Source: a virus
IMG/VR virus record: IMGVR_UViG_3300032316_000105
Coordinates: 1 to 20,878 of that record
Strand: one strand, 5' to 3'
Length of the DNA: 20,878 nt
The notes under the pieces are model-generated. The model made no database searches, was not told where the DNA came from, and was given only the letters and a program-made list of their open reading frames with translations. Shown here in pieces: positions 1,694-10,251 of the stretch. Numbering within the stretch: position 1 is the stretch's first letter; every line of letters begins with the position of its first letter. The translations under genes were made by a program, and so were the position numbers.

Positions 1694-4176
1694 ATATTCA
1701 AGAACTCACCAACGGCAGGTGGCCGGACCTGCTGGCGCATTTTTGCGGCCTTACAGCATCACAACTCACAGATAAGCACCAGCCTTGCCCCCTTTGCGGC
1801 GGTGAAGACCGCTACCGCTTTGATGACATAGACGGCAACGGCTCATGGTTTTGCAATCAATGCGGCGGTAAAGATCATGCAGGTGGCGCCGGCAATGGCA
1901 TGGATATGCTCATGCGGCGTCAGAAATGGCCTTTTGCTGAAGCCTGCAAACGCATCGAGCAGCATCTAGGCATCAGGCCAGAACCGCCAATCAAAAATGC
2001 TGAGCATGTTTGGCGCTATAACGATGATTTTTATGTTTGCAGGTTTCCTGGCAAGCGCATCAGACCGCTCTGGTTTGATGGCACCGAATGGAAGTGGACC
2101 GCACCTCCAGCGCCTCGCCCTTTATACAACCTTGACTCGCTAAGCCAACGGCCTGATGCACCTGTATTAATAGTTGAAGGCGAAAAGACCGCTGATGCAG
2201 CCGCCAAGCTGTTCCCACATGCTGTAGTAATTACATGGCCTAGCGGTTGCAAAGCGCATGGCAAAGCCAACTGGGCACCAATAGCAAACCGTAAATGCGT
2301 GTTATGGCCTGATGCTGATGACGCAGGCCGCGACGCAATGGCGAAATTAGTGCCGCGACTTATTGCCGCTGGTGCCGATCAAATACGTATGGTCCAGCCG
2401 CCTTCTGATGTTGAAAGCGGTTGGGACCTTGCAGATTGCGATTGGACCGCAGCCGAAGCTGGTGCTTATTACAAAGCCAACCGCACGCCACCGATTGAAT
2501 TTCCAGCCGTAATTAAAGCTGAACCCTTACCGGAACCTGCGCTAGAGCCGCCACCTTTACCAAAAGCCGATGAATCATTTTTATGCCTCGGGTTTGATGC
2601 TGATGCTTACTATTACCAACCTCATAGCACCGGCCAAGTAACGCGCCTTTCGCGTTCAGCTCACTCAGGTGTAAACCTAGTAGCACTAGCACCGTTGCCT
2701 TATTGGGAATCGTTATACCCATCAAAAGTTGGTGTAAACTGGACCGCCGCCGCATCTAGCCTATTTGCACGCCAGGCTGATATTGGAGTTTACTCCCCTG
2801 ATCGCATCCGTGGCCGTGGCGCATGGTGGGATCAAAAGCAATCTGTCCTACACCTCGGCGATAAATTAGTTGTTAATGGCATAAACCGGCCCATACGTGA
2901 TGGGATTAACGGCAGCCCATACCTATATCAACGCCTTAGCGCCTTACGTGGCTGCGCTGGTGCCGAGCCATTAACCGATAATGAAGCCTTTTCAATTGCT
3001 GAATTAGCAGAACGCTTCCACTGGGAAGTGCCTGCATCTGGCCTACTGCTCGCCGGTTGGGTAGTGCTAGGCCCCATCTGCGGTGCATTGGATTGGCGCC
3101 CCCATGTATGGCTGACAGCATCCGCTGGCTCTGGTAAGTCAGCAGTGCTTGCGCGTTATGTAACGCCTCTATTAGGTGATATGGGTTTAATCGTTACCGG
3201 TAACACAACTGAACCTGGTATCCGTCAAGCCTTACGTGCGGACGCCTTACCTGTTGTATTTGATGAAGCCGAATCCAACGAACGCAACGATCAAGCACGT
3301 ATGCAAGCAATACTTGGCCTTGCGCGTGTCGCATCTAGTGAATCAAGAGCGCATACACTTAAAGGCAGCCCAGAAGGTGATACTCAGCGTTACACCATCC
3401 GTAGCATGTTTATGATGTCATCTATTGCCACCGCATTAAAGCAAGGAGCTGATAAATCGAGATTTGCACAATTAACATTACGCAGCCACAATGAGATACC
3501 AAAAGCTGAACGTTTAGCTCATTGGGAATCATTAGACCGCGACCTTGATAAATACATAAGCGATGCAATTGGCCGTCGGTTACAAGCGCGTACAATTGCA
3601 TTAATACCAATCATACGCCAATCAATTGCGATCTTTACCCGTGCCGCCGCTGAAGTATTTGACAGCCAACGGCTTGGTGATCAATACGGCACCTTACTTG
3701 CTGGTGCATGGTCGTTACAATCTTCTGAAGTTGTAACCCGCGATCAAGCATGGAAATTAATTGAGCAAAACAACTGGGAGTCTTACAGTCAATCAGTTGA
3801 AATATCAGATGAAAAGCGTTGCCTTCAAAAGATCCTCCAGCATCAATTCCGCGTTGAAGGTGACAAGGCCGTAACCCGTACCATTGGTGAGCTGATAGAT
3901 ATTGCGCTGAACCATGCAACCGACATCCACGTCGGCGCCAACGAGGCACAGGCAGTGCTTGGGCGTAATGGCATCAAAGCCGAGGAGGCCGCCATCTACG
4001 TGTCAAATACTGCCGACGCAATCGGCAATATCTTGCGTGATACGGCCTGGGCAAATTGTTGGTCCGTGATTTTGGCTCGTATTCCTAACGCTGTAAAAGC
4101 TGGCGTAATTTATTTCAAAGGCTCTGGCATGTCAGGTCGTGCCGTCAAAATACCGTTAGAAGCCATACAAGCGTAA
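1690..4176 (+). CDS. Bifunctional primase-helicase (zinc ribbon, Toprim, DUF927-like ATPase)
   Basis: An 828-residue replication protein. The N-terminal primase zinc ribbon has C33-x2-C36-x18-C55-x2-C58 (CPLCGGEDRYRF ... WFCNQC). A Toprim domain follows, with the acidic VEGEKTADA (E163) and DADDAGRDA (D208/D210) motifs that would bind Mg2+ during primer synthesis. A Pro-rich linker (about 269-293) leads to a C-terminal P-loop ATPase with Walker A ASAGSGKSA (477-485) and Walker B VVFDEAE (522-528), resembling DUF927-type prophage helicases. This gives a one-chain primase plus replicative helicase, as in P4 alpha or T7 gp4 in concept, though the ATPase family differs from T7. It starts at the ATG overlapping the RHH gene stop and ends exactly where the first CGTAAGA repeat begins, so the stop codon lies inside that repeat. 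A replication protein flanked by iterons suggests an initiator role (inference). No disrupted motifs were seen. Confidence 0.92.
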   Translation: MNIQELTNGRWPDLLAHFCGLTASQLTDKHQPCPLCGGEDRYRFDDIDGNGSWFCNQCGGKDHAGGAGNGMDMLMRRQKWPFAEACKRIEQHLGIRPEPPIKNAEHVWRYNDDFYVCRFPGKRIRPLWFDGTEWKWTAPPAPRPLYNLDSLSQRPDAPVLIVEGEKTADAAAKLFPHAVVITWPSGCKAHGKANWAPIANRKCVLWPDADDAGRDAMAKLVPRLIAAGADQIRMVQPPSDVESGWDLADCDWTAAEAGAYYKANRTPPIEFPAVIKAEPLPEPALEPPPLPKADESFLCLGFDADAYYYQPHSTGQVTRLSRSAHSGVNLVALAPLPYWESLYPSKVGVNWTAAASSLFARQADIGVYSPDRIRGRGAWWDQKQSVLHLGDKLVVNGINRPIRDGINGSPYLYQRLSALRGCAGAEPLTDNEAFSIAELAERFHWEVPASGLLLAGWVVLGPICGALDWRPHVWLTASAGSGKSAVLARYVTPLLGDMGLIVTGNTTEPGIRQALRADALPVVFDEAESNERNDQARMQAILGLARVASSESRAHTLKGSPEGDTQRYTIRSMFMMSSIATALKQGADKSRFAQLTLRSHNEIPKAERLAHWESLDRDLDKYISDAIGRRLQARTIALIPIIRQSIAIFTRAAAEVFDSQRLGDQYGTLLAGAWSLQSSEVVTRDQAWKLIEQNNWESYSQSVEISDEKRCLQKILQHQFRVEGDKAVTRTIGELIDIALNHATDIHVGANEAQAVLGRNGIKAEEAAIYVSNTADAIGNILRDTAWANCWSVILARIPNAVKAGVIYFKGSGMSGRAVKIPLEAIQA

Positions 4177-4451
4177 GAAACGTAAGAGACCGTAAGACTG
4201 AAAACCCTTGCCACCACTCATTTCTTACGCTTCTTACGCTTCTTACGCTTTTTAAGGTATAGCTCTCTATAAATAGAAAATAAAAAAAATAAAATGAAAC
4301 ACCTTTTATTTTTTTGCTTCTCTAGTCTATCTATATACCTTTTTTACCGTAAGAAACGTAAGAAAGAGGAAAATCACTGTGCTGGCGGGTGATCTCAGTC
4401 TTACGCTTACCGTAAGAGACCGTAAGAAGCGTAAGAAACCAAACCCTTGCC
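4172..4451. repeat. CGTAAGA iteron array around an A+T-rich palindromic core: candidate replication origin or operator cluster
   Basis: Twelve exact CGTAAGA heptamers occur here. Forward copies start at 4172, 4181, 4191, 4348, 4357, 4411, 4421 and 4430. Reverse copies (TCTTACG) start at 4223, 4232, 4241 and 4399. Within clusters the period is 9-10 bp, about one helical turn, so bound proteins would line up on one DNA face. Between the clusters, about 4250-4346 is strongly A+T-rich and contains a 12-bp perfect inverted repeat (4283-4294 / 4304-4315) bounded by AAGGTATA (4254-4261) and TATACCTT (4334-4341). The stretch 4177-4499 has no convincing gene. Iterons plus an easily melted core directly after a primase-helicase gene is the usual anatomy of a phage or plasmid origin. 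An alternative is a multi-site operator for the RHH protein encoded at 1544. The array is certain; the function is inferred. Confidence 0.8.
4283..4315. repeat. A/T-only 12-bp perfect inverted repeat in the iteron core
   Basis: AAAAAAATAAAA (4283-4294) is followed by a 9-nt spacer and its exact reverse complement (4304-4315). It has no G or C in the stem, so it is poor as a rho-independent terminator. It is well suited to being a DNA unwinding element or a site bent by a host architectural protein. A terminator for the primase transcript cannot be fully excluded because the right arm ends in a T-run. Confidence 0.6.
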
Positions 4452-4771: not shown

Positions 4772-6016
4772 ATGACATCCATCAAGGATCTCAAGGCTGA
4801 CCATAGAAATGCTCGTAAACGTACTGATCGTTCTGCATCATTAATTGCAGAATCACTTAAACGATTTGGCGCTGCACGCAGCATTGTTATTGATGAAGAC
4901 AACCGGATCCTTGCTGGTAATGGCACGGTTGAAGGCGCAAAAGCTGCTGGCATACAAAACATTCGTGTTATCGAAACTGATGGCACCGAAATTATTGCCG
5001 TAAAACGCACTGGCTTAAGTGAAGACGACAAGATCGGCCTTGCGCTAGCTGATAACCGCACCAGTGATTTATCCGATTGGGATAAGGACATGCTGCAACA
5101 GCTCAGCGCAGAACACGACCTAGCGCCATGGTTTGAAGCGGATGACCTAGCCGAGATCATTGGCGAAGCAGAGCAGTTACCAACCGAGGGCCTGACCGAT
5201 GCCGATGACGTGCCTGAGGCCCCTGAGGAGCCGATCACCAAGCCTGGCGATGTGTGGCTGCTAGGGAACCACCGCGTTATGTGCGGGGACAGCACAGACG
5301 TGCTAGCCGTTGGGCGCTTGATGAGTGGCAAAAAGGCGGACATGGTGTTTACCGATCCACCGTATGGCGTTGCCTACACAGGCAATAGCAACCCAAATAC
5401 GCAAAATGCACACAACAGCGGCAAAGCTATGGAAATAAAGAATGATAAATTACAAGGAGAAGAATTAAAGCAATTGTTTCAAATGTCGATGACAAACGCA
5501 ATGTGCGTTACAACAAAAAAAGCGGTATTTTATATCTGGTATGCAACATCTAAATCAATAGAAACTTTGACTGGTGTTAGGGATTCCGGGCTTGATGTAA
5601 GAGCTTATATATTTTGGTACAAAGTAAAATCCCCAATGAGTGCTTTTATGAGTCAATATATTCCAAATTACGAACCACTTTTGTATTGCTACAAAACAGG
5701 AAGCTCGACGGATTGGTATGGCCCTACAAATGAAAAATGCGTATGGGAGCAACAGGTCCAAACAAGAGATAGAGTGCACCCGACGCAGAAGCCTGTTGAG
5801 TTACCTGAGCGAGCTATCAACAACAGCAGCAAGAAGGGCCAGCTCATACTTGACCTGTTTGGCGGCAGCGGCAGCACGTTGATTGCTTGCGAGAAAACTA
5901 ACCGCCATGCTCGCCTAATGGAGCTAGACCCGAAGTATTGTGACGTGATCGTGAAACGCTGGGAGCAGTTCACGGGCAACAAGGCTATGCTTGAGCTAAT
6001 ATCTGAGGCGTTTTAG
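4772..6016 (+). CDS. ParB-like domain fused to beta-class DNA methyltransferase (DPPY)
   Basis: A 414-residue protein. Residues 1-130 form a ParB/Srx-like domain with core RILAGNGTVEGAKAAGI (45-61), common at the N-terminus of phage stand-alone methylases. The catalytic half has motif IV DPPY (195-198), then the variable target-recognition region (about 205-332), then HPTQKP (336-341) and the SAM-binding motif I LDLFGGSGST (360-369). That order, IV before I, is the beta class. DPPY points to N6-adenine methylation, with N4-cytosine less likely. No cognate restriction gene is adjacent, so it is probably an orphan phage methyltransferase for evading host restriction or for marking DNA. The ATG at 4772 is preceded by a weak AGGAA (4765-4769). 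The stop overlaps the next GTG by one base. The target-recognition segment is 32-38% G+C over most of its length by hand count, against about 62% just upstream. The recognition sequence cannot be read from the protein. Confidence 0.93.
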   Translation: MTSIKDLKADHRNARKRTDRSASLIAESLKRFGAARSIVIDEDNRILAGNGTVEGAKAAGIQNIRVIETDGTEIIAVKRTGLSEDDKIGLALADNRTSDLSDWDKDMLQQLSAEHDLAPWFEADDLAEIIGEAEQLPTEGLTDADDVPEAPEEPITKPGDVWLLGNHRVMCGDSTDVLAVGRLMSGKKADMVFTDPPYGVAYTGNSNPNTQNAHNSGKAMEIKNDKLQGEELKQLFQMSMTNAMCVTTKKAVFYIWYATSKSIETLTGVRDSGLDVRAYIFWYKVKSPMSAFMSQYIPNYEPLLYCYKTGSSTDWYGPTNEKCVWEQQVQTRDRVHPTQKPVELPERAINNSSKKGQLILDLFGGSGSTLIACEKTNRHARLMELDPKYCDVIVKRWEQFTGNKAMLELISEAF

Positions 6017-6339
6017 TGGCCGCCCCAAGAGGCACCAGGCAAGATACACTCGACCGCGCAAATCGTTTTGCGCGGATAATAGCTAGCGGAGGTCGTAGGT
6101 CTGATTGCATTCGATATGCCTCGGAACATTGGGGAGTAGGTGATCGCACTGTTGATCAATATCTTAAACTTGCGCGTGAACAACTTAAGGCTGATTGGGA
6201 TATTGAACGCCCGCAAATGGTAGCTGATTTATTAAGTCAACTAAGCACTTTACAGATGGAAGCTAGACGTGCAGGGCAGTTTCATATTGCGCTTGGTGCT
6301 ATTAATACGGCAGCTAAATTAACTCAACTCTGTTCGTGA
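6016..6339 (+). CDS. terS: Probable terminase small subunit
   Basis: A 107-residue protein starting at a GTG that shares one base with the methyltransferase TAG stop. Residues about 26-55 form a helix-turn-helix-like stretch (RRSDCIRYASEHWGVGDRTV, then DQYLKLAREQL), resembling the DNA-binding region of TerS proteins. The C-terminal half (DLLSQLSTLQMEARRAGQFH, then IALGAINTAAKLTQL) looks like the oligomerising helices. TerS recognises the packaging site and recruits the large subunit. The gene lies directly upstream of the large terminase with a 4-nt GTGA overlap (6336-6339), the classical arrangement. Sequence similarity within this family is low, so the call leans on position plus the helix-turn-helix pattern. 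Confidence 0.78.
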   Translation: MAAPRGTRQDTLDRANRFARIIASGGRRSDCIRYASEHWGVGDRTVDQYLKLAREQLKADWDIERPQMVADLLSQLSTLQMEARRAGQFHIALGAINTAAKLTQLCS

Positions 6340-7685
6340 GTATTCTTGCTATTGCCCGTGAAGGGCATGTACTGCAACAACTTAATCACGGCGGTGAGTT
6401 AATAGATATAGAAGCATTGCTGTTAAAGATCCAAGCTGATTTGCATCCAGGCCAGCTTGATTTTGTAAATGACCATACAACCCAAATTCTTGGCGTATCA
6501 GCAGGCTATGGGGCTGGTAAAACCCGAGCGCTGTGTGCGAAAGCGGTACATCTTGCAGCAGCTAACCAAGGCTTTATCGGGTTAGTGATGGAGCCGACTG
6601 GGCCGCTAATTCGGGATATTTGGCAAGAAGATTTTGATGATTTCCTGGAAGCGTATGGTATCCCGTACAGTTTCCGCGCTAGCCCATTACCTGAATATGT
6701 GCTTCATCTACCGTTAGGTGATACCAAGATCCTATGCCGTAGCTTTGAAAATTGGCAACGTTGCATTGGCATTAATGCCGCATGGTGCCTTTGCGATGAA
6801 TTGGACACAGTGATGCCAGCCATTGCTAACAAGGCATTCCCTAAAATCCTTGGCCGATTGCGTGCTGGTAATACCCGGCAATTTGCGGTGGCGTCCACAC
6901 CAGAAGGCTTTAGGTGGATGTTTAATACGTTTGCTAGTGAGGACGCATTATCACGTACTGATCGAAAGCTGATCAAGATGCGTACCCAAGACAACCCATA
7001 TTTGCCGCCGGATTTCATCGAACGGTTGCAGGCAAACTATGACCCAAACTTATTACGTGCATATCTTGATGGCGAGTTTATTAACCTTACGACTGGCACT
7101 GTTTACGACAGGTTTGATAGGGCTAAACATGTAGTAACGCAATTGCCAGATTACAGTGAAGAACCATTGCGTATTGGCGTTGACTTTAACATTGGCAACA
7201 TGTCGGCGGTTATTGGTATCCGTAGCGGTAAAGGTTTATTAATAATTGACGAAATCAGCGGTGCGCATGATACCGATGCATTAGGTGCCGAGATCCGCAG
7301 GCGATATCCAGCCCACAGGCTTTATGGCTACCCAGACGCCAGCGGCGGTAATCGCTCTACAAATGCAACGCAAACCGATATCCAGATATTGGAGCAATAT
7401 GGCATCAGCAACCAATCACCTAAAGCAAATCCGCCTGTGCGTGATCGTGTTGCAGCAGTGCAGGGGTTACTTGAAAACGGTAAAGGCGAGCACCGGTTGC
7501 AAGTCAGCAGCACCTGCAAACGCATGATCGAATGCTTAGAGCTGCAATGCTATAACGATAAAGGCACGCCAGATAAAGAAGGCGGACATGACCACATGAC
7601 AGACGCATTGGGCTATCTAGTATGGCGTGAGTTCAACCCGCTACACGCTGGTGCTGGGCGCGGTACAGGCATTAGAATCTATTAA
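6336..7685 (+). CDS. terL: Terminase large subunit (ATPase-nuclease)
   Basis: A 449-residue DNA-packaging motor. The N-terminal ATPase has Walker A AGYGAGKT (56-63), Walker B CLCDELD (151-157) and coupling motif VASTPEG (185-191). The C-terminal RNase H-fold nuclease shows the three acidic positions in GVDFNIGN (D283), YGYPDASGG (D334) and HDHMTDALGYLVW (D423). TerL cuts concatemeric DNA and pumps it through the portal. The start is GTG 6336, overlapping the terS stop; the next gene, portal, starts 15 nt after the stop. The length is normal for the family and no motif is damaged. The packaging mode (cos or pac) cannot be told from this alone. Confidence 0.95.
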   Translation: MSILAIAREGHVLQQLNHGGELIDIEALLLKIQADLHPGQLDFVNDHTTQILGVSAGYGAGKTRALCAKAVHLAAANQGFIGLVMEPTGPLIRDIWQEDFDDFLEAYGIPYSFRASPLPEYVLHLPLGDTKILCRSFENWQRCIGINAAWCLCDELDTVMPAIANKAFPKILGRLRAGNTRQFAVASTPEGFRWMFNTFASEDALSRTDRKLIKMRTQDNPYLPPDFIERLQANYDPNLLRAYLDGEFINLTTGTVYDRFDRAKHVVTQLPDYSEEPLRIGVDFNIGNMSAVIGIRSGKGLLIIDEISGAHDTDALGAEIRRRYPAHRLYGYPDASGGNRSTNATQTDIQILEQYGISNQSPKANPPVRDRVAAVQGLLENGKGEHRLQVSSTCKRMIECLELQCYNDKGTPDKEGGHDHMTDALGYLVWREFNPLHAGAGRGTGIRIY

Positions 7686-7700
7686 CCAAAGGCCGGTTGC

Positions 7701-9086
7701 ATGTACACAGGTTTTAATTTCTACAACCGGCCTACTGCTGACCGCAAGGTCACAAAGGTGCAAGATGCAAATACTGCATGGTATGCGCAAGAGCCGCATT
7801 GGATGTTGATTGAGGACCTGATGCAGGGCACCTACGGGATGCGCAAAAGGCACCGCCGCTATCTGCCGCAGGAACCACGCGAACAGGATGAGTCTTATGA
7901 TAATCGCCTAGCACGTAGCGTATGCCCGCCGTACTATCAACGTTTAGAACGTATGTTGGCAGGAATGTTGACACGTAAGCCCGTTAGGTTAAATGATACC
8001 AGCGACAACATACGGGAACAACTATTCGATGTAGATCTGCAAGGTAATGATCTAAATGTTTGGACTTTTGAGTCAGCCCGCAAGATGGTACGTTACGGCC
8101 ACATCGGCACATTAGTTGATGCGCCATCAGATGGCGGCAGGCCGTATTGGTGCACCTACACACCACGGCAAATTTTAGGCTGGCGTACTGAAGCAAAAGA
8201 CGGGCAGCAGCAACTTACAATGTTGCGATTGCTGGAATCGGTGATTGTGCCTGATGGCGATTACGGTGAGAAGGCAGTGCAGCAGGTTCGCGTCTTAACA
8301 CCAGGCGCATACGAGCTACATCAAAAGCAAGATAACAGCGAGTTTAAAATTGTAGAAGAAGGCAATACAAGCCTGGCAGAAATTCCATTCAGCGTGGCCT
8401 ACAGCAACCGCGTTGGTTATTTAGAGTCAAGGCCACCATTAGAAGATATTGCAGAACTAAACCTTAAAACCTATCAAATACAATCAGATCTTGACAACCA
8501 GCTACATATATCAGCAGTGCCGATGTTGGCATTCTTTGGCTTCCCGTCAGCAGCAGAAGAAGTATCAGCAGGCCCAGGAGAGGCTATAGCCTTTCCCGAA
8601 AATGGAAGGGCGGAATTTATAGAACCAGGCGGTGCCAGTTTTGAGTATCAATTCAAACGGTTAGAGCAGCTTGCCGGGCAGATTAATGAGCTGGGGCTAT
8701 CAGCAGTGTTAGGGCAAAAGTTAAGCGCCGAAACGGCAGAAGCAAAACGCATTGACCGCAGCCAGGGCGATTCAACGATGATGGTTGTAGCCCAAAACGT
8801 GCAAGACATGATTGATAACTGCTTACGCTTTCATGCTGAATATCTCGGCACCAGTGAAGCGGCTGGCAGTTGCCTAGTAAATCGTGATTTTATTGGCGCA
8901 AGGCTAGAACCTGCTGAGATCCAAGCATTATTACAGCTTTATACCGCTGGCACTATCACGCAAGAAACATTATTGCAACAGTTAGCAGATGGCGAGGTAT
9001 TGGGCGATGATTTTGATGTAGAAGAAGAACTAAGCGCAACTGCTAATGGAGGGCTGAATGACAATACCAGCAGCCTTATTTCGTAA
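7701..9086 (+). CDS. Portal protein (DUF4055-type)
   Basis: A 461-residue protein with the pattern of DUF4055-family portals. It has an N-terminal region of short charged helices with YDNRLARSVCPPYYQRLERM and LAGMLTRKPVRL, a middle beta-rich section (YGHIGTLVDAPSDGGRPYW, then PRQILGWR), and a helical stem/crown region with LGLSAVLGQKLSAETAEAKR, which is typical of portals. The dodecameric portal sits at one capsid vertex, takes DNA from TerL and later joins the connector. AAAGG lies about 8 nt before the ATG. Its last 29 bases overlap the start of the minor head gene, whose Shine-Dalgarno is inside the portal gene. Position after TerL and before MuF supports the call. Confidence 0.88.
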   Translation: MYTGFNFYNRPTADRKVTKVQDANTAWYAQEPHWMLIEDLMQGTYGMRKRHRRYLPQEPREQDESYDNRLARSVCPPYYQRLERMLAGMLTRKPVRLNDTSDNIREQLFDVDLQGNDLNVWTFESARKMVRYGHIGTLVDAPSDGGRPYWCTYTPRQILGWRTEAKDGQQQLTMLRLLESVIVPDGDYGEKAVQQVRVLTPGAYELHQKQDNSEFKIVEEGNTSLAEIPFSVAYSNRVGYLESRPPLEDIAELNLKTYQIQSDLDNQLHISAVPMLAFFGFPSAAEEVSAGPGEAIAFPENGRAEFIEPGGASFEYQFKRLEQLAGQINELGLSAVLGQKLSAETAEAKRIDRSQGDSTMMVVAQNVQDMIDNCLRFHAEYLGTSEAAGSCLVNRDFIGARLEPAEIQALLQLYTAGTITQETLLQQLADGEVLGDDFDVEEELSATANGGLNDNTSSLIS

Positions 9087-10251
9087 CGCAATTGATTTAA
9101 ACCGTTACAGCAATAGTGTAGGGCGACAAGTAATTACAACTTATAATGATATTATTATTGATGCTGTAAACCAGCTACGAACAATTGATGAGTTAGCAGC
9201 ACCAGTAAAAGCAGCAAGGTTACGTGCGATATTAGCCCAGCTTAAAGACAGCCTTAATACATGGTCGGGCGATAGTATCACTGCACTATCTACAGAATTG
9301 CAAGGATTAGCAGAACTGCAATCTGATTTCGTTACTGAAGAGCTACGAAAGGCATTACCGGCAGGCGCACGTACTGCAGTTAATACAGTTGAAATAAGCC
9401 CGCAATTTGCGCAATCAGTAGTTACAACTGATCCGACACAGCTTAACGTGGTGGCATTATCGGATGATTTATTTGCAGCCGTGCAAGGTGCACCACAAAC
9501 GTTTAGCCTTACTGCTGCCCAAGGTGCAACGATTACGCTGCCTAACGGTGAGGTAGTAAGTAAAGCATTCCGTGGTATTGCAGTTGATCAATCTGAACGA
9601 TTTGGGCAGGTGGTGCGTAATGGGTTGCTAACAGGTGAACCCACACCTGATATTGCAAAGCGATTGATTGGGCAATTGCAATTTGGCGAAACCGCAAAAA
9701 CGGCACGTCAGTTAGCAGCCGCAGGCGGTGAACTCACGGCGGTAGCTGATAACCAGATAATGGCGCTTGTACGTACAAGCATTAATCAAGTTGCTAATGC
9801 TGCCAGCCAACAGGTATATGAAGCGAACCAAGATATAACTAAAAAGTATCGTTACATTGCAACACTTGACACTAGGACTAGCGCTAGGTGCCGCGCATTA
9901 GATGGCCGTGAGTTTGAGTATGGCAAAGGGCCGATGCCGCCACAACATTTTAATTGCAGATCAACAACAGTACCAATCATTGATCCTGATATCTTGCCAC
10001 CATCAACAGTTGCAACACGCGCCAGTAAAGATGGTCCAGTGCCAGTTAATACAAGCTATGGCCAATGGTTAAAAGATCAACCGCGCTCAGTGCAGGAAAA
10101 AGTATTAGGCAAAGATAAAGTAGTTTATTTTAATAAATTAGCTGAAAAACATGGCGCCCGGGATGCCATGGCAAAGCTCGTACGTGACGATGGGTCGGAG
10201 CTATCATTAGATGACCTCCGCAAGCGTTACGGTGCCATTAAAGAAAGGTAA
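9058..10251 (+). CDS. MuF-like minor head protein
   Basis: A 397-residue protein with the phage Mu gpF-like domain near residues 230-310. The key pattern is TLDTRTSARCRALDG (D271, R273, T274, S275, C278), followed by PPQHFNCRSTTVPI (H297, N299, C300, R301). MuF proteins are present in few copies inside the capsid near the portal and may be injected or help assembly. The C-terminal part (YGQWLKDQPRSVQEKVLG, later SLDDLRKRYG) is also common in this family. A strong GGAGGG at 9048-9053 lies 4-5 nt before the ATG, deciding the start within the portal gene. No extra toxin-like domain is visible. Confidence 0.9.
   Translation: MTIPAALFRNAIDLNRYSNSVGRQVITTYNDIIIDAVNQLRTIDELAAPVKAARLRAILAQLKDSLNTWSGDSITALSTELQGLAELQSDFVTEELRKALPAGARTAVNTVEISPQFAQSVVTTDPTQLNVVALSDDLFAAVQGAPQTFSLTAAQGATITLPNGEVVSKAFRGIAVDQSERFGQVVRNGLLTGEPTPDIAKRLIGQLQFGETAKTARQLAAAGGELTAVADNQIMALVRTSINQVANAASQQVYEANQDITKKYRYIATLDTRTSARCRALDGREFEYGKGPMPPQHFNCRSTTVPIIDPDILPPSTVATRASKDGPVPVNTSYGQWLKDQPRSVQEKVLGKDKVVYFNKLAEKHGARDAMAKLVRDDGSELSLDDLRKRYGAIKER

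Follow-up and report, generated by a model that had tools for sequence, protein, structure and literature searches.

A specificity cassette, probably exchanged as a block by recombination, in a ParB-like/DNA methyltransferase fusion gene of a virus

Does a G+C-poor segment in the middle of a viral DNA methyltransferase gene mark the place where a new sequence specificity was brought in, and, if so, what exactly was exchanged? The gene lies in IMG/VR record IMGVR_UViG_3300032316_000105, of which positions 1–20,878 (one strand; 20,878 nucleotides, the whole stretch analysed, hereafter the window) carry genes for helicase, primase, methyltransferase, TerL, portal, head and tail proteins. We compared the window with related loci and contigs, labelled L005–L254, a scan of viral contigs giving 47 loci. 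Judging from these sequence comparisons, we consider it highly probable (roughly 0.9) that positions 5368–5851 are one allele of an exchangeable specificity cassette that has been replaced as a block by recombination in a phage methyltransferase. The features on which the argument turns are as follows.

4772–6016, + strand: ParB-like/beta-class DNA methyltransferase fusion gene, 414 aa, phrog_498, PF01555 at residues 190–394
4772–5236, + strand: constant part, ParB-like domain and acidic linker, residues 1–155, about 78–100% identical per segment among the relatives first fetched
5237–5367, + strand: start of the methyltransferase domain, the putative left crossover zone, with CGDST at 5282–5296 and motif IV DPPY at 5354–5365
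5368–5851, + strand: putative exchangeable cassette, residues 200–360, with motifs V–VIII, target-recognition region and HPTQKP (motif X); L009, L023 and the window have unrelated sequence here
5385–5770, + strand: G+C-poor island of the first-pass annotation, inside the cassette
5852–6013, + strand: constant C-terminal part from motif I, DLFGGSGST (5852–5878), the putative right crossover zone
6016–6339, + strand: 107-aa ORF, phrog_34910 without assigned function, in the position of a small terminase and within the conserved right flank
6336–7685, + strand: large terminase subunit TerL (PF03237, PF17289), right flank, 70–78% identical to cultured cyanosiphophages

By profile, motif order and modelled fold, the gene product is predicted to be a beta-class N6-adenine/N4-cytosine DNA methyltransferase. 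The PF01555 match scores 91.3 bits against a cut-off of 26.7, and DPPY (195–198), HPTQKP (336–341) and DLFGGSGST (361–369) follow one another in the beta-class order (IV, recognition region, X, I). In an AlphaFold2 model, whose pLDDT is near 90 over large parts of the methyltransferase core and low in the ParB part (residues 1–140), the methyltransferase domain matches M.BceJIV (Z 21.2, 211 residues, rmsd 3.1), with further matches to MboIIA (Z 20.0), CcrM (Z 20.0), M1.HpyAVI and the EcoP15I Mod subunit; sequence identity to solved beta-class enzymes is about 20%. Since residues 223–328 of the model form helices and strands that belong to the catalytic fold, with 199–222 forming a low-confidence loop, the island appears to contain, in addition to the recognition region, motifs V–VIII, which we presume to lie there from knowledge of the beta class. 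The phrog_498 match extends over residues 3–407 (E 7e-115) and a ParB-like match, to phrog_620, over residues 3–141 (E 3e-24), while the Pfam ParB model did not reach the E 0.01 threshold with the 414-aa product. Related ParB-like domains (68–88% identical) also occur with other C-termini (L088, L091, L048, L095, L043, L093, L092, L100, L107 and L119), among them short zinc-ribbon-like tails (CPNCGHEF), in L100 a methyltransferase with motif I before (C/S)PPY, and other tails.

When the gene was compared segment by segment, the ParB part of close relatives was 89–99% identical to that of the window and the middle segment 7–51%. The same pattern is seen in the DNA, where the closest relatives are about 89–97% identical on both sides of the cassette and carry unrelated sequence at about 5368–5851. 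Against L009, the window is 97–100% identical up to about 5290, diverged over 5295–5367, without similarity over 5368–5851 and 96.6% identical from 5852, so that near-identity ends at about 5290–5295 and resumes exactly where the motif I codons start. Against L023, identity is 88.6% up to 5367, nothing aligns to 5828, and 92.0% is found over 5829–9957. This break recurs in 18 pairs from several sub-lineages, nearly always from DPPY to motif I and with the nearest flanks 84–95% identical. Different cassettes are carried by 157 of the 187 pairs with alignable ParB DNA, and the downstream 1.7 kb is alignable in 81–99%; cassettes of differing pairs are non-alignable by the definition of a type, and the evidence from these pairs consists of the alignable flanks and the type counts. 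A gene identical to that of the window is present in L005 and a 97% identical one in L006, both from other metagenomes, and L009–L011 come from three metagenomes; assembly chimerism was rejected, as the same junctions appear in independent metagenomes.

The number of alleles was counted on the 53 rows that match the window in their N-part at 70% identity or more, with types cut at 40% identity. Twelve cassette types are distributed over the ParB tree of these rows in a manner requiring at least 28 changes where 11 would do, which points to repeated block replacement. On a single ParB sequence, L112, L116, L121 and L122 carry four different cassette types, and the window, L006, L009 and L023 form a starred ParB clade with three types, in which the flanks are so close that at least two replacements are required. 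Because a type is a chain of 40% identities in 23 of the 53 rows, the number of types depends on the cut, being 12 at 40% (stricter set) and 20 at 60% (56-row set). One type, in L038, L039, L040, L103, L108 and L120, is about 100 residues longer, between the equivalents of residues 305 and 324. The ParB parts differ so little that support for their tree is modest (stars on 11 of 43 inner branches); the cases with identical or nearly identical ParB parts do not depend on that support. Separate trees for the parts of the gene had been proposed as a check by the first-pass annotation, and the ParB and cassette trees prove discordant, not of the same phylogeny.

Cassettes are also shared across unrelated ParB parts. 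The cassette of the window is 71% identical to that of L124, a gene with an N-part only 29% identical, and the cassette tree joins the window, L006 and L124 at 100/99; a cassette tree constrained to the unity of the ParB lineage is rejected (AU p 0.009; outer rows long-branched). As the C-part of L124 also resembles that of the window, over 58% of its length (72%), this exchange may have included part of the C-terminus. The L009 cassette is 86–89% identical in genes whose N-part is 35–41% identical, and it was found in 49 contigs with, among the matches listed, N-parts mostly 32–43% identical; the L023 cassette was found in 240 stretches. More generally, cassettes 86–93% identical recur on ParB parts 35–75% identical. 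For the window cassette no donor within 90% identity was found, the viral contigs yielding only L124 outside the lineage, cultured phages a best match of at most 31.8%, and genome contigs, searched with the whole gene only, two distant loci.

Within a type, cassettes are under purifying selection, with dN/dS of about 0.01–0.06 where dS is measurable (window–L006 0.06; L015–L018 dN 0), and these very low values suggest that each allele is a maintained, probably active part of an enzyme. Between types, cassettes of the window and L009 are saturated at a flank dS of 0.17–0.24. In the pair L007–L008 the cassette dS is 0.17 against 0.65–0.77 in the flanks, and this cassette thus appears younger than its flanks, as expected of travelling cassettes. 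That no exchange occurred and the middle simply evolves very fast, by relaxed constraint or positive selection, is scarcely credible even though target-recognition regions are generally the least conserved in such enzymes and the flanks are functionally conserved, because evolution within types is slow and purifying while types are saturated over little-diverged flanks, closely similar cassettes sit on ParB parts of only 35–75% identity and the two trees conflict; for the differences from type to type, the dN/dS values and shared cassettes refute it. The first-pass annotation had proposed that the specificity region was replaced by recombination, and near-identical flanks, unrelated middles, 12 types, discordant trees and contrasts in synonymous rates all bear this out. 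It had further proposed that the catalytic frame was kept, which is true of the DPPY-side start and of the C-terminus with motif I; motifs V–VIII move with the cassette. The exchanged unit is therefore larger than the island, reaching from the CGDST or DPPY codons (about 5295–5368) to motif I (5852), and is not just a target-recognition domain, given that motifs V–VIII are included.

How could such a block be exchanged without loss of function? The ParB-like N-terminal domain, the start of the methyltransferase and the C-terminus with the SAM-binding motif I are held constant, and we propose that the cassette (motifs V–VIII, target-recognition region and motif X) is swapped as a block with methyltransferase genes of other phages, through crossovers in or near the short DNA stretches coding for CGDST/DPPY on the left and DLFGGSGST on the right. 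The swap would be in frame and the catalytic residues would be retained. In the 157 differing pairs, the median edges of DNA homology lie 10 nt after the start of DPPY and at motif I +6, and recombination at short conserved stretches appears the simplest reading of edges at catalytic-motif codons, as in the Type III genes of H. pylori (PMC3983042). It should be noted that these edges mark where DNA similarity ceases to be detectable, and selection keeping the motifs alike may have set them instead of the crossovers themselves.

The striking uniformity of the edges could instead point to a dedicated mechanism, such as a diversity-generating retroelement, site-specific inversion from silent cassettes or a homing endonuclease, in place of ordinary phage recombination, and L009 has an additional 615-aa ORF downstream of terL. 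We regard such a mechanism as most improbable. Whole unrelated blocks differ, not scattered adenine-directed positions; no second methyltransferase, reverse transcriptase or recombinase was detected among the nine window proteins scanned against PHROGs, the contig being incomplete; and uniform edges would be expected as well if the enzyme stayed functional only after crossovers at conserved motifs. The additional ORF (L009 7852–9696) lies between terL and the portal gene, is absent from the window and had no Pfam match in the residues tested.

The composition that first drew attention to the locus was confirmed by exact counts. The 60-base lines from 5401 to 5700, put at 32–38% G+C by the first-pass annotation, contain 31.7–38.3% (5401–5460, 36.7%; 5461–5520, 31.7%; 5521–5580, 33.3%; 5581–5640, 38.3%; 5641–5700, 31.7%), and the flanks, put at about 62% for 5161–5280 and about 58% for 5821–5880, contain 63.3% (5161–5220), 61.7% (5221–5280) and 58.3%; on recounting, 5385–5770 corresponds to residues 205–333, between DPPY and HPTQKP, where about 205–332 had been given. 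At 36.5% G+C the island departs from the window mean of 47.1 (sd 3.9), and the fraction of all 386-base stretches of the window that are as low is 0.0004; the only equally G+C-poor stretch, at about 246–659, is in the helicase gene. Third codon positions of the cassette core have 34% G+C against 43% expected from the amino acids and the codon usage of the window (z −2.4), a mild deficit and a value near that of the window genes (30–55%), and those of the linker and catalytic flanks 62–71% against 34–46% expected (z +3.7 to +4.1). Since the flanks deviate more than the cassette, much of the contrast comes from G+C-rich flanks. The cassette is G+C-poorer than its flanks in 49 of 53 relatives (mean −6.8 points), the window being the second most extreme, and L009 has the same dip with a cassette unrelated to that of the window. 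Composition alone is therefore not diagnostic, and it was rejected as proof of transfer in view of the dip in relatives with unrelated cassettes and of flanks that are codon-usage outliers. The first-pass annotation had held that the same composition across the clade would speak against replacement, and this sharing is largely what we observe; nevertheless, recombination stands on the sequence comparison.

These composition data are what one would expect if the island merely reflected amino-acid content and G+C-rich flanks, the allele having been inherited together with the ParB part from an ancestor of the L007/L008 group without recent recombination, and L007, L008 and L089 do hold the nearest cassettes within the lineage (51–55% identical). 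We nonetheless judge this improbable: the window cassette is closer to that of L124, outside the lineage, whose unity in the cassette tree is rejected, and the close flanks of the window, L006, L009 and L023 call for replacements among them.

The role of the exchange has to be considered in the light of the virus itself. TerL and portal proteins of the window are 60–78% identical to those of the cultured Synechococcus phages KBS-S-2A and S-H1 and Prochlorococcus phages MED4-117, MED4-184 and P-HS2, and on this ground the virus is likely cyanosiphophage-like with a picocyanobacterial (aquatic) host. The neighbours of the methyltransferase gene are primase, a 90-aa ORF, the 107-aa ORF and TerL; the adjacent res gene of Type III restriction-modification is absent among them, and no partner restriction enzyme was detected in the contig. 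In the cultured relatives KBS-S-2A, S-H1 and MED4-184 the slot before terS/terL is without a ParB-methyltransferase gene. Other genes lie there between the replication genes and TerL in S-H1 and MED4-184 (L253 5188–6237; L254 3791–5915), namely an annotated polymerase III beta clamp in S-H1 and, in MED4-184, a ParB-like protein without methyltransferase (annotated DNA methylase), an FkbM-like protein and a queuine transferase. In TerL itself (window 6336–7070, L009 6490–7236), the window and L009 differ clearly in the N-terminal ATPase half and are nearly identical in the C-terminal nuclease half, a contrast suggestive of a second exchange at the level of domains and of a general tendency to domain exchange. 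Upstream, CGTAAGA occurs 12 times in the window where 1.4 copies are expected, and every copy falls within 265 bases, 4172–4436, in both orientations, surrounding an AT-rich core between the primase gene and orf90 (strand folding z −6.2); the cluster resembles an origin of the iteron type. Ahead of the ParB gene, close relatives apparently carry different repeated words (GGACGCA 10–11 times in L009 and L023; GTTACAA seven times in L006), and the iteron-like repeat sequence may therefore itself differ among near-identical phages.

The middle of the cassette probably sets the DNA sequence that is marked. By analogy with beta-class enzymes, each cassette type would recognize a different DNA motif, and the methylated motif would change with the cassette; selection by host restriction, other methylation-sensitive defences or competing phages may then keep many alleles in circulation. 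Alternatively, the exchange could be real but neutral, or serve an end other than the evasion of restriction; the ParB-like domain might, for instance, link methylation to the control of replication or packaging, or the phage might gain in competition against co-infecting ones. In favour of such a view, the constant ParB-like domain accompanies every cassette, as well as tails other than a beta-class methyltransferase, and nearby replication and packaging genes vary too. We hold it to be unlikely, though it deserves more weight than the other alternatives, since phage methyltransferases protect against restriction in the tested cases cited in PMC7468147, and diverse hosts exerting frequency-dependent selection would account for the number of alleles.

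The mechanism of exchange in Type III Mod genes and the variability of orphan methyltransferases in phages are already known. Like Type III Mod of Helicobacter pylori and modA/modB/modD of Neisseria, the present gene has the beta-class motif order, a variable center between conserved motifs and families of alleles, with unrelated centers within near-identical flanks and the same segment in non-orthologous genes; those are bacterial chromosomal restriction-modification genes, often phase-variable, whereas here a virus gene is fused to a ParB-like domain and no restriction partner was detected in the contig. In cryoconite phages, orphan methyltransferases are the most frequent variable genes, with alleles down to 38% identical and TerL also variable (Nat Commun 2020, PMC7468147), and there, too, near-identical genomes carry highly diverged methyltransferase and TerL alleles after recurrent recombination, explained by restriction evasion. 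That study treated whole genes or read-mapping gaps, whereas here the block is mapped inside the gene, with edges at catalytic motifs, a constant ParB-like domain and at least 12 types in one lineage. Fusions of a ParB-CTPase fold to an N6_N4 methyltransferase (PF01555), enriched in phages, have the same architecture, and variation of the recognition region within a lineage is not described in the available part of that article (PNAS 2025, PMC12704722). HsdS of Type I systems follows a similar working principle, a constant scaffold with exchangeable recognition domains, but is a separate subunit with two such domains, and the window enzyme is not of the HsdS family. Hill et al. (1991, cited in PMC7468147) reportedly observed that plasmid pTR2030 and a lactococcal phage exchanged a methylase domain, which likewise brought a methyltransferase domain into a phage, but this was a single laboratory event with a different enzyme. 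As far as our searches reach, the novelty lies in mapping the exchange to a motif-edged block within a gene whose ParB-like scaffold stays constant, in how many types one lineage holds and in finding that unrelated scaffolds carry the same cassettes; a limited literature search found no published description of motif-edged cassette exchange on such a scaffold.

More tentatively, and with slightly less than even confidence, we suggest that this cyanosiphophage-like lineage would share a pool of cassettes that enter and leave a ParB-anchored scaffold as they pass between unrelated phages. This would be the viral equivalent of Type I/III specificity shuffling, with the ParB-like domain, and not the methyltransferase, as the conserved function. 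For comparisons of phages, the finding means that specificity can change behind a gene name that stays the same. The locus also provides a natural series of isogenic-like alleles, one scaffold with at least 12 unrelated recognition cassettes, and the mapping of cassette to methylated motif thereby becomes possible; the series further allows asking which host restriction systems drive the frequencies of phage alleles and defining crossover points for the joining of active chimeric methyltransferases. For the virus, replacement of the cassette probably offers a means to outrun the defences of its hosts.
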